Part shown: piece after piece, positions 16,850 through 22,192 of the stretch
Position numbering within the stretch: the first letter of the stretch is position 1
How the letters are laid out: every line of letters starts with the position of its first letter
Source: Gemmatimonadota bacterium
GTDB taxonomy: Bacteria; Gemmatimonadota; Gemmatimonadetes; Gemmatimonadales; GWC2-71-9
Reading direction: 5' to 3'
Length of the DNA: 34,033 bases
Assembly: GCA_022562295.1 (NCBI GenBank)
Contig: JADFPO010000008.1
Location: 1 to 34,033 of the forward strand
Translations under genes and position numbers: made by a program
The notes under the pieces: model-generated
The model's input: only the letters and a program-made list of their open reading frames with translations
Database searches by the model: none
What the model was told of the DNA's origin: nothing

Positions 16850-18031
16850 ATGCCGTTCCATGGCGTCGATTTCTTGGGAATTGATTCGCTCTTCAATGAA
16901 GAAGAACTCGCCGTGCGCGACACCGTGCGCCGTTGGGTCGATGACGCTGTGATGCCGATCATCGGGGATCGGTACATAGCGGGAGAGTTCCCTCAGGAGC
17001 TGATAGGACAGATGGCCGAGTTGGGTTTGTTCGGGGCAAACCTCCCGGAGAAATACGGGTGTGCGGGTCTCAACAACGTTGCCTATGGCCTTATCATGCA
17101 GGAACTCGAGCGCGGCGACAGCGGCATCCGGTCGTTCGCTTCGGTGCAGGGAGCGTTGGTCATGTATCCCATCTACATGTTTGGCAATGAGGAGCAAAAG
17201 AAGGAATGGCTCCCGAAGCTGGCGAGTGGCGAGGTGGTGGGATGTTTCGGTTTGACCGAGCCGGATTACGGATCGAATCCGGCGGGCATGATCACCACGG
17301 CCAGGGAAACGGATGCCGGATGGACGCTGAACGGAACCAAGATGTGGATCACCAACGGGTCCACCGCACAAATGGCGATTATTTGGGCAAAGACCGGCGA
17401 TCTGGACGATCCCGGCAGCATTCGCGGGTTCATCGTTCCGACCGATGCGAAGGGGTTCACGTCGAAAGATCAGAAAGGCAAGATTTCGCTGCGCGCCAGT
17501 GATACCAGCGAGCTTGCGCTCGAGGACGTTTGTATTCCGCGTGATGCGGTGTTATCGGAGAGCGCAGGAATCAAGAGCCCGTTGATGTGCCTCACGCAAG
17601 CACGGTACGGCATTGCGTGGGGCGCGGTTGGGGCGGCGATGGCGTGCTACGACGAGGCTTTGAACTACGCCAAGACGCGAATGATATTCGACAAACCGAT
17701 CGGATCCTTCCAGTTGCAGCAGCTGCGGCTGGCTGACATGCTGACCGAGATCACCAAGGCGCAACTGCTTTGCGTCCAACTGGGCAGGTTGAAGGATGCC
17801 GGAACCATGCGGCCAGAGCAGGTGTCGCTCGCCAAGCGGAACAACGTCAACATCGCGACCGATATCGCACGCGAGGCACGGCGGCTTCTGGGAGCAAACG
17901 GTATCTTGGCCGAGTACCAATCGATGCGGCACATGACGAACTTGGAGAGCGTATATACCTACGAGGGCACGCATGACGTGCACACGCTCATCCTAGGAAA
18001 AGCGGTGACGGGGATCAGTGCCTTTGAGTGA
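16850..18031 (+). CDS. gcdH: Glutaryl-CoA dehydrogenase
   Basis: A 393-residue flavoprotein of the acyl-CoA dehydrogenase family that converts glutaryl-CoA to crotonyl-CoA and CO2 in lysine, tryptophan and aromatic-compound degradation. The glutaryl-specific features are present: SGIRSFASVQGALVM with Arg94 in the position that binds the substrate's terminal carboxylate in human GCDH, and YTYEGTHDVHTLILGKAVTGISAF with catalytic base Glu372. FAD-contact motifs CFGLTEPDYGSNPAG and MWITNGS are intact. The start at 16850 follows an AAAGGA ribosome site. Electrons would pass to the ETF and ETF-QO encoded downstream, which supports the assignment. Confidence 0.94.
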   Translation: MPFHGVDFLGIDSLFNEEELAVRDTVRRWVDDAVMPIIGDRYIAGEFPQELIGQMAELGLFGANLPEKYGCAGLNNVAYGLIMQELERGDSGIRSFASVQGALVMYPIYMFGNEEQKKEWLPKLASGEVVGCFGLTEPDYGSNPAGMITTARETDAGWTLNGTKMWITNGSTAQMAIIWAKTGDLDDPGSIRGFIVPTDAKGFTSKDQKGKISLRASDTSELALEDVCIPRDAVLSESAGIKSPLMCLTQARYGIAWGAVGAAMACYDEALNYAKTRMIFDKPIGSFQLQQLRLADMLTEITKAQLLCVQLGRLKDAGTMRPEQVSLAKRNNVNIATDIAREARRLLGANGILAEYQSMRHMTNLESVYTYEGTHDVHTLILGKAVTGISAFE

Positions 18032-18497
18032 GAGAACCCTGCTGCTGCGTCTCTTGGATCAAGCCTTCAATCGGCAGGCCTGGCACGGTACTACCTTGGC
18101 CGGCTCACTTCGCGGCGTGACGGTCCAGCAGGCGCTTTGGCGGCCGGATGCGAAGCGCCACAACATTTGGGAACTCACCCTGCACACGGCCTACTGGAAG
18201 TACGCGGTGCGGCGCCGGCTCACGGGTGAGAAGCGCGGGAGTTTTGGTCGAGCCGGGAGCAATTGGCTGAAATTGGTCAAGGTGAAGGATGCGTCCGCTT
18301 GGCGGGACGATGTGGCGTTCTTGAAACACGAACACGCAGCTCTTCGAGCGGTAGTCGCCGGGCTGAGCCCGACCAAACTGTCTGCCAGGAGCGCCACGCG
18401 CCGCTGGCGAAATTCGGAGTTGATTCACGGCGTTGCAGCGCATGACTTGTATCACGCCGGCCAGATCCAGTTGCTGAAGCGCCTTCAACGGCCATGA
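18018..18497 (+). CDS. DinB-fold protein
   Basis: A 159-residue four-helix protein of the DinB/YfiT superfamily. It starts at a GTG 14 nt inside gcdH, so it is likely translationally coupled. The metal-site histidines are visible: NIWELTLHTAYWKYAVRRRL supplies one, and HGVAAHDLYHAGQIQLLKRL supplies the H..YHAGQI pair typical of DinB_2. DinB-fold proteins include thiol-dependent transferases and hydrolases, but most are uncharacterised. The position between gcdH and etfB is conserved only if comparison shows it; here it is simply observed. Confidence 0.85.
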   Translation: MPLSERTLLLRLLDQAFNRQAWHGTTLAGSLRGVTVQQALWRPDAKRHNIWELTLHTAYWKYAVRRRLTGEKRGSFGRAGSNWLKLVKVKDASAWRDDVAFLKHEHAALRAVVAGLSPTKLSARSATRRWRNSELIHGVAAHDLYHAGQIQLLKRLQRP

Positions 18498-18684: not shown

Positions 18685-19437
18685 TTGAAGATCGCGGTGT
18701 GCCTCAAGCGGGTGCCGGACACGGAAACCCGCATCAAGATCGGGGCGGATGGAAGGTCCATAGACGAGGATGGCGTCAAGTTCATCCTGAATCCGTACGA
18801 CGAGTACGCCGTCGAGCAAGCACTGCAACTCAAGGACAGTGCGGGGACTGGCGAGGTAACGGCGATCTCCCTCGGCAGCAGCGCGTCGCAAGAGACGATC
18901 CGCACCGCGCTGGCGATGGGAGTGGATCGGGGAATCTTGCTCGAAACCGACGCGCTCCCGCTCGATCCGGTGCCGATAGGCAAGGCTCTTGCAGCGGAGC
19001 TCGGGTCCGGGGATTACGATCTCATCTTCTTCGGCAAGGTCGCGATTGACGACTACAGTCACGCGGTGGGCACCATCGTGTCGGAACTCCTCGGCATTCC
19101 GAGTGTCAGTGCCGTTGGCCGGCTCGAGATCGCGGATGGGAAGGGCACGGCGGAGCGCGAGATCGAGGGGGGCGTGGAGGTCGTCGAGTTTTCCTTGCCG
19201 GCAGTTCTCACGGCGGAGAAAGGACTGAACGAGCCCCGCTACCCCGCTTTGCGTGGCATCATGATGGCGAAGAAGAAACCCCTCGAGATAAAACCCGTAG
19301 AATTGGAAGAGGGTGGGTTGTCGGTGGTGGAGTTGTCGGTGCCGCCGGCCAGACCCGCTGGACGTATCGTCGGTGAGGGTGCGGACGCCGTGCCAGCGCT
19401 CGTCGAAGCCCTTCGTACGGAAGCCAAGGTGATCTAG
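18685..19437 (+). CDS. etfB: Electron transfer flavoprotein beta subunit
   Basis: A 250-residue protein from TTG 18685, 7 nt after a GGAG ribosome site. The N-terminus MKIAVCLKRVPDTETRIKIGADGRSID and the segment FILNPYDEYAVEQALQLKD are diagnostic for EtfB, as is YDLIFFGKVAIDDYSHAVGTIVSELLGIP. The C-terminal RYPALRGIMMAKKKPLEIKPVEL is the usual EtfB recognition-loop region (consensus PRYxxLxxIMxAKKK). With EtfA it carries electrons from acyl-CoA dehydrogenases such as GcdH to ETF-QO. It is the first gene of the etfBA-etfQO set. Confidence 0.96.
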   Translation: MKIAVCLKRVPDTETRIKIGADGRSIDEDGVKFILNPYDEYAVEQALQLKDSAGTGEVTAISLGSSASQETIRTALAMGVDRGILLETDALPLDPVPIGKALAAELGSGDYDLIFFGKVAIDDYSHAVGTIVSELLGIPSVSAVGRLEIADGKGTAEREIEGGVEVVEFSLPAVLTAEKGLNEPRYPALRGIMMAKKKPLEIKPVELEEGGLSVVELSVPPARPAGRIVGEGADAVPALVEALRTEAKVI

Positions 19438-20407: not shown

Positions 20408-22063
20408 ATGGCGCGTGTGAGGCCCTCGGACACGCAGCCGTTGTTGCCGTTGGATCGCATCATCGTCAGGGATGCGCCGTCCGATGAAAGTATCGAGGTC
20501 GATGTTCTCTTCGTGGGTGGCGGACCCGCGGGTTTGGCCGGTGCCATCGAGTTAGCCCATCTCGTCGAGGCTGATGCCAAGGCGGCGGGCGGCCTGGGCG
20601 AGATCAGCATTGCCGTGCTCGAGAAGAGTGCGGCTCTCGGAGAACACAGCCTCTCCGGGTCGGTGGTGAACCCGATCGCTTTCCGAAGGCTGTTTCCAGA
20701 TCTAAAGGATGAGGACTTTCCGTTCCGCCAGCCCGTGAAGCACGAGGCGGTGTACCTGCTCACCAAGAACCGCTCTTTCCGTTTGCCAACGCCTCCCACG
20801 ATGCGCAATCACGGGAACTACACCGCCTCTCTCTGTGAAATGGTCCGTTGGTTGGGCAAGAAGGCCGAAGAGTTGGGAGTGGACGTGTTCGCTGGGTTCC
20901 CGGCGGAGAAATTGCTCGTGAGCGGCGAACGAGTGATTGGCGTCCGTACTGCTCCCTCCGGTTTGGATCGCGATGGGAGGCAGTCTTCGAGCTACACGCC
21001 CGGCACCGACGTCGTTGCGAGGGTCACAGCCCTTGCGGAAGGGAGTCGGGGTACCCTGGCCGAAGCGTATATCCAGTGGCAGGAGATCAAGTCGGAGAAT
21101 CCCCAGATTTACGCTCTCGGCGTCAAGGAGATCTGGGAGACGAAGAAACCGCTGGACACGGTGATCCACACCCTGGGGTGGCCGCTTCCGGGCGATGCGT
21201 TCGGCGGGAGTTTCATGTACCCGTTGGAGCCCAACGTGGTCGGTCTGGGGTTGGTGGTTGGTCTCGACTACCGGAAGACCAACCTGGACACGCACGGGTT
21301 GCTTCAAGAAATGAAAAGGCACCCCTTGTTCAGGCCGTATCTGGAAGGCGGCGAAATGGTGGAATGGGGAGCCAAGACGATTCCTGAAGGTGGGTTCTAC
21401 TCGCTACCGGACCGTCGTTTCGGACACGGCGTCGTGATTCTCGGTGATTCGGCCGGCTTCGTGAACGTGCCGTCTCTGAAGGGCATTCACTACGCGATGC
21501 AGTCGGGGATATTCGCGGCTCGTACCATCTTCGATGCCCTCAAGAAGGGAGAAACGTCCGCTCCCTATCTGGCGTCGTACGATGAATTGGTACGTGATTC
21601 CTTCATCACCGATGACATCTTCCGTACGCGCAATATGCGGCTGGCGTTCAAGAGCGGTTTTGTGCTCGGAGGATTCAAGTCGGTAATGATGACGCTTACT
21701 GGAGGACGATTATTCGGCAAGCGGATCCCAATAGAGACGGATGCCGACGTTTGGAAGCAAGCCCGCTCACCAAAGGCGTTGCAGCCGGATGGGGAACTGA
21801 CGTTCAGCAAGGTCGATGCGGTGTTCAAATCGGGGAACGCTACACGTGACACGATCCCTTCTCACCTGATCACCGAGGGCGACGTGGACCGGGAGGTGGC
21901 CGAGATGTACGCGAGCATGTGTCCGGCGGGCGTTTACGAACTGGTGGACGGGAAACTCCGCGTAAACGCACCGAACTGCGTGGATTGCAAGGCGACGGAC
22001 GTGTTGGGCCCCCGTTGGATGCCAAGGGAAGGTGGGAGTGGACCTTCCTACAAGAGGATGTAG
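20408..22063 (+). CDS. ETF:quinone oxidoreductase, with an incomplete Fe-S cysteine set
   Basis: A 551-residue membrane-associated flavoprotein that passes electrons from ETF to quinone. It starts 2 nt after etfA with GGAGG upstream. The FAD motif is VLFVGGGPAGLAGAIELAH; other family blocks are GEHSLSGSVVNPIAF, HTLGWPLPGDAFGGSFMYPLE, VGLGLVVGLDYRKTNL and FVNVPSLKGIHYAMQSGIFAA. The C-terminal ferredoxin-like domain reads MCPAGVYELVDGKLRVNAPNCVDCKATDVLGPRWMPREGG. Well-studied ETF-QO enzymes have four cysteine ligands with NCxxCxxCD. Here Cys505, Cys524 and Cys527 remain, but residue 530 is Thr (codon acg), followed by Asp531. The rest of the protein is intact, so it is probably functional with an altered cluster. 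Confidence 0.94.
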   Translation: MARVRPSDTQPLLPLDRIIVRDAPSDESIEVDVLFVGGGPAGLAGAIELAHLVEADAKAAGGLGEISIAVLEKSAALGEHSLSGSVVNPIAFRRLFPDLKDEDFPFRQPVKHEAVYLLTKNRSFRLPTPPTMRNHGNYTASLCEMVRWLGKKAEELGVDVFAGFPAEKLLVSGERVIGVRTAPSGLDRDGRQSSSYTPGTDVVARVTALAEGSRGTLAEAYIQWQEIKSENPQIYALGVKEIWETKKPLDTVIHTLGWPLPGDAFGGSFMYPLEPNVVGLGLVVGLDYRKTNLDTHGLLQEMKRHPLFRPYLEGGEMVEWGAKTIPEGGFYSLPDRRFGHGVVILGDSAGFVNVPSLKGIHYAMQSGIFAARTIFDALKKGETSAPYLASYDELVRDSFITDDIFRTRNMRLAFKSGFVLGGFKSVMMTLTGGRLFGKRIPIETDADVWKQARSPKALQPDGELTFSKVDAVFKSGNATRDTIPSHLITEGDVDREVAEMYASMCPAGVYELVDGKLRVNAPNCVDCKATDVLGPRWMPREGGSGPSYKRM

Positions 22064-22082
22064 GGACCGAGTCTTCACGGTG

Positions 22083-22150
22083 TGTCAGGTGTCAGGTCGA
22101 ACGTTTCGGGGCCGTGGGCCCCGACACCTGATCCCTAGAACCTGACACCT
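22083..22150. terminator. Heptamer-built inverted repeat between convergent genes
   Basis: After the ETF-QO stop come two TGTCAGG units (22083-22096). On the moeA side lie GACACCT, GATCCCT, AGAACCT and GACACCT (22123-22150), also 7-base units. AGGTGTCAGG (22087-22096) pairs perfectly over 10 bp with CCTGACACCT (22141-22150). Within that lies a perfect 8-bp hairpin, TCGGGGCC-GTG-GGCCCCGA (22106-22124). No U-tract follows on either strand. The location between convergent genes suits a bidirectional terminator or 3' end protection. Confidence 0.75.
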
Positions 22151-22192
22151 CTCAACACAAACTGACCAAGCCTCCGGTTCTCAGCCGCCCCA

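Follow-up and report, generated by a model that had tools for sequence, protein, structure and literature searches.

The window analysed here, a stretch of 34,033 nucleotides, belongs to a Gemmatimonadota metagenome-assembled genome that is about 95% complete. It encodes a homologue of ETF-quinone oxidoreductase (ETF-QO), a respiratory enzyme that delivers the electrons of fat and amino-acid breakdown to the quinone pool (Table 1). A preliminary description had placed the gene in a complete operon with gcdH upstream. This largely holds: etfQO directly follows etfB and etfA, and the upstream gene is best matched by glutaryl-CoA dehydrogenases, but a DinB-family gene and about 190 bp separate it from etfB. 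Beyond the 3' end of etfQO, inverted GTGTCAGG/CCTGACAC-like copies were spotted by eye in the intergenic stretch at 22080-22160, and are possibly a repeat element or a terminator.

Table 1. Genes and cluster-site residues in the window
Feature	Position	Strand	Basis or remark
Glutaryl-CoA dehydrogenase-like acyl-CoA dehydrogenase	16850..18031	+	2eba (putative glutaryl-CoA dehydrogenase), E=7.2e-135
DinB-family gene	18018-18497		between acyl-CoA dehydrogenase gene and etfB
etfB	18685..19437	+	PF01012, 141 bits
etfA, sole ETF alpha gene found in the genome	19437..20405	+	PF01012, PF00766; single PF00766 match genome-wide
etfQO, three-cysteine ETF-QO homologue	20408..22063	+	551 aa, ATG start; ORF, Pfam, 2gmh match, fold
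N477-x-T479-R480-D481 loop, replacing T-x-H-[ED]-E of four-cysteine enzymes	21836..21850	+	alignment columns, pattern count
Cys505, cluster ligand (pig Cys528)	21920..21922	+	same residue in every class
Cys524, cluster ligand (pig Cys553)	21977..21979	+	same residue in every class
Cys527, cluster ligand (pig Cys556)	21986..21988	+	invariant across classes of the tree set
Ala529-Thr530 for pig Thr558-Cys559 (lost ligand and lost neighbouring Thr)	21992..21997	+	class alignment
Asp531 (pig Asp560), found in four-cysteine enzymes too	21998..22000	+	alignment

The genome contains a single ETF alpha gene and, next to it, a single Fer4_ETF_QO gene; its CCG-domain proteins resemble GlcF and LutA by length and sequence rather than the long EtfD. 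Given these single copies and the absence of an EtfD-like protein among the CCG proteins, the window ETF-QO is probably the genome's only link from ETF to quinone. An obligate linkage of etfQO with etfBA can be ruled out, since etfA/B lay nearby in 17 of the 56 relatives' loci with enough flank; synteny therefore supports the window only.

Outside the cluster site the protein is intact, as had been described. The ETF-QO ubiquinone-binding domain (PF21162) scored 85.7 bits against a cut-off of 27.7, the GGGPAG of a FAD-binding Rossmann core occupies residues 37-42, and the C-terminal Fer4_ETF_QO domain (PF05187) was recognised at 44.1 to 48.5 bits (cut-off 24). Pig ETF-QO (2gmh) matched over the full length (E=3.5e-94), and an NCBIfam search returned no ETF-QO-specific match. 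The AlphaFold model (mean pLDDT 95.7) superposes over its full length on 2gmh_A with a TM of 0.89. The fold, the FAD, quinone-binding and Fer4_ETF_QO domains, and three of the four cluster cysteines are thus shared with the mitochondrial and proteobacterial enzymes (ETFDH). A FixC-like flavoprotein fold is likewise shared with the FixC-FixX/EtfABCX systems (7koe_C), but these use a separate ferredoxin-like subunit and electron bifurcation with NADH, whereas the window type is one chain with one incomplete site. Judging from fold, synteny and its standing as the only copy, the protein is most likely active in ETF-dependent quinone reduction, in line with the activity proposed for it earlier.

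The translated open reading frame has cysteines at residues 143, 505, 524 and 527 and no others; position 530 is occupied by Thr, encoded by ACG (21995-21997), and position 531 by Asp. In a phmmer alignment with pig ETF-QO, Thr530 falls on Cys559, the fourth cluster cysteine (NCVDCKATD against NCVHCKTCD). The earlier reading of an ETF-QO that keeps Cys505, Cys524 and Cys527 and lacks the last cysteine of CxxCxxC is therefore correct, and the four-ligand set C...CxxCxxC that marks the family's [4Fe-4S] site is incomplete. By this feature of its sequence the three-cysteine ETF-QO is a variant form of ETF-QO. We found no description of such a form in the open literature that we searched.

The substitution had been suggested to be a lineage trait, and it proved to characterise a subfamily found in several phyla. 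All 166 distinct Thr-type homologues read carry NC[VI]DC[KR]ATD; they come from loci of Gemmatimonadota and their neighbours, further families, and samples of Bdellovibrionota (19 among 192 genomes), Planctomycetota (8 more genomes) and Acidobacteriota (2 more genomes). C505, C524, D526, C527, A529, T530 and D531 are kept in 159/159 aligned distinct sequences of this type, so that the stretch 523-531 has seven invariant positions out of nine, whereas the whole protein has 73 out of 551 (P about 2e-5). Across 156 distinct Thr-type genes Thr530 is encoded by ACC (90), ACG (41), ACA (15) and ACT (10). The use of all four codons indicates that selection acts on the protein to keep Thr, and the conservation of this residue with synonymous codons across genera, families and phyla rules out both a sequencing error and a pseudogene.

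A sister class of 26 proteins, NC[VI]QC[GN]AI[TSN], likewise lacks the fourth cysteine and has Ile in its place; it is mainly from Actinomycetota, with further members from one Gemmatimonadota family and one Planctomycetota genome. Over both classes the remaining three cysteines are invariant in 185/185 aligned proteins and the fourth is present in none. The native spacing, including NC-x-x-C and CPAxVY, is strictly retained throughout. Without a bound cluster or metal, such invariance would be difficult to account for. A substitute for the fourth ligand elsewhere in the chain is ruled out: Cys143 occurs in 69% of the Thr-type class and never in the sister class, and ten of the three-cysteine proteins contain no further cysteine at all. 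Both refutations named in the preliminary description, a sequencing error and another cysteine as ligand, thus fail.

The same phyla also contain four-cysteine enzymes. Most Acidobacteriota and Planctomycetota have this type, and so do 33 Bdellovibrionota, two Gemmatimonadota genomes and one Actinomycetota. The PF05187 score separates the two types, four-cysteine members lying mostly at about 91 to 153 bits, far above the window protein, and three-cysteine members at about 38 to 64; part of the low-scoring genome matches were typed by this score alone and are left out of the counts.

Further changes accompany the lost ligand. Thr-Cys occupies the positions of pig 558-559 in 42/42 four-cysteine rows, and the residue before the lost cysteine is Ala in both three-cysteine classes. 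Both have also lost about four residues from the loop that follows the motif, and an upstream T-x-H-[ED]-E has become N-x-T-R-D, with T-R-D in 190 of 192 three-cysteine proteins (S-R-D in one, and one missed by the pattern). Relative to the mitochondrial and proteobacterial enzymes the window protein shows all of these, namely Cys559 to Thr, Thr558 to Ala, H-[ED]-E to T-R-D and the shortened loop. The Actinomycetota-type class (NCVQCGAIT) has the three cysteines, the Ala and the T-R-D loop in common with it, but differs in the Ile at the lost ligand, in a Gly after the third cysteine and in lacking the Asp after the lost ligand. The equivalent of pig Tyr533 is retained in three-cysteine proteins and that of Thr558 is not. 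In the Rhodobacter enzyme the equivalents of both residues reportedly hydrogen-bond to the cluster, and their removal is said to lower its potential.

We placed these classes on a maximum-likelihood tree of 73 proteins built from roughly the first 465 residues, with the cluster domain left out; the search was a quick one, branch support is SH-aLRT only, and the outgroup sits on a long branch. Both three-cysteine classes together form one clade (support 100), and the separate classes are also clades (100 and 98). Given that this single clade emerges without the cluster domain, loss of the fourth cysteine looks like one old event at the base of the clade. The clade spans Gemmatimonadota, Actinomycetota and parts of Bdellovibrionota, Planctomycetota and Acidobacteriota. 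Thr-type Bdellovibrionota (loci L103, L123, L124, L127 and L248-L264), each genome with one Fer4_ETF_QO match, nest inside the Gemmatimonadota radiation, which suggests horizontal transfer.

Other cluster motifs were seen among the homologues. Most four-cysteine Bdellovibrionota proteins (L190-L219, L265-L267) have extra cysteines, C-x3-C ... PC-x3-CP ... CxxCxxC-x3-CP, the full eight-cysteine pattern of a dicluster ferredoxin fused to the flavoprotein, and probably hold two [4Fe-4S] clusters. Three more conserved cysteines (C-x3-C ... PC-x2-FCP) give a seven-cysteine pattern in four-cysteine proteins of Gemmatimonadota (L135, L136), Acidobacteriota (L274-L303) and Planctomycetota (L315-L344). 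In two Acidobacteriota genomes (L306, L307) the homologues read NCLHPKICEFACP, with Pro for the second cysteine of CxxCxxC; here the cluster motif has changed independently.

From the conservation described above we infer a three-cysteine cluster in the window ETF-QO. It is rather probable that the clade is a multi-phylum ETF-QO subfamily in which a stable, functional three-cysteine cluster lies on the route to quinone, either a [3Fe-4S] cluster or a [4Fe-4S] cluster with a new oxygen ligand, for example from the Thr-Arg-Asp loop, and that this natural ligand swap was fixed once and has been kept since. In its specific form our best explanation, held with even confidence, is an old ETF-QO subfamily that lost the fourth cysteine once, is likely active and holds a cluster that is most likely [3Fe-4S]. 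Three points of background count against it. In known [3Fe-4S] ferredoxins the missing cysteine of CxxCxxC is usually the second, not the third; three conserved cysteines could alternatively hold zinc; and human ETF-QO deprived of one ligand cysteine reportedly no longer reduces quinone.

A complete [4Fe-4S] cluster with a fixed non-cysteine ligand is possible, though we think it distinctly the less likely arrangement. Three residues come into question: Thr530 or Asp531 in the motif, or Asp481 in the Thr-Arg-Asp loop. An Asp-ligated cluster had been proposed previously, but a role for Asp531 specific to the variant is weakened, given that four-cysteine enzymes have the same Asp (pig Asp560) and the sister class replaces it by Thr, Ser or Asn; in that class Thr530 is replaced too, by Ile. 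Position 531 nevertheless always bears an oxygen in three-cysteine proteins, and Asp481 stands out as the one acidic residue that both classes keep without exception where four-cysteine enzymes have Glu or His. These changes are, however, all common to one branch, so that their association neither proves contact nor provides independent evidence. There is a precedent in NsrR, where a [4Fe-4S] cluster is held by three Cys plus Asp (PMC5411485). A counterpart for the preferred [3Fe-4S] reading is mycobacterial EtfD, which has Thr where relatives have a cluster Cys, contains a linear [3Fe-4S] at that site and also passes ETF electrons to menaquinone (PMC13083937), but belongs to an unrelated protein family with CCG domains and membrane haem. 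These parallels lend chemical plausibility to the two leading readings and are no evidence for the window protein itself.

Loss of the cluster altogether, with the three cysteines kept for zinc or structure and ETF passing electrons directly to FAD, appears improbable to us. The site is short of one ligand, and in the AlphaFold models residues 529-533 form a short helix in the window protein where a four-cysteine Gemmatimonadota relative has coil. Against this stands the strict retention of three natively spaced cysteines in 185 proteins. The predicted helix hints that the ligand loop has been rebuilt, although AlphaFold leaves clusters out of its models.

An adaptation to the use of menaquinone instead of ubiquinone seems very improbable as the origin of the change. 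Gemmatimonadota and Actinomycetota use menaquinone, which a lower cluster potential would suit. Acidobacteriota and Planctomycetota are menaquinone users too, yet have mostly four-cysteine enzymes. Among 192 Bdellovibrionota genomes none had a match above the cut-off to Ubi-OHase, the ubiquinone hydroxylase family searched for, although 33 of them carry the four-cysteine and 19 the three-cysteine type; the presence of both types in this phylum without a Ubi-OHase match largely refutes quinone type as the sole cause.

Together these data allow us to propose how the three-cysteine enzyme would work. The partner ETF would hand its electrons to the three-cysteine ETF-QO, where they would pass the iron-sulfur cluster and FAD before the membrane quinone is reduced. 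The cluster would most likely be [3Fe-4S], with a [4Fe-4S] cluster whose fourth iron rests on an oxygen ligand or water as a close second. The replacement of Thr558 by Ala points to a potential unlike that of the textbook enzyme, and probably below it.

Constructed mutants have been used to probe what the cluster does in ETF-QO, and the three-cysteine type is a natural one that has probably been kept working. Comparison of three- and four-cysteine enzymes, such as those that both occur among Bdellovibrionota, would give a direct test of how the ligand and the potential affect electron entry into the quinone pool. For bacteria with a three-cysteine ETF-QO, annotation that presumes an ordinary [4Fe-4S] cluster is unsafe.
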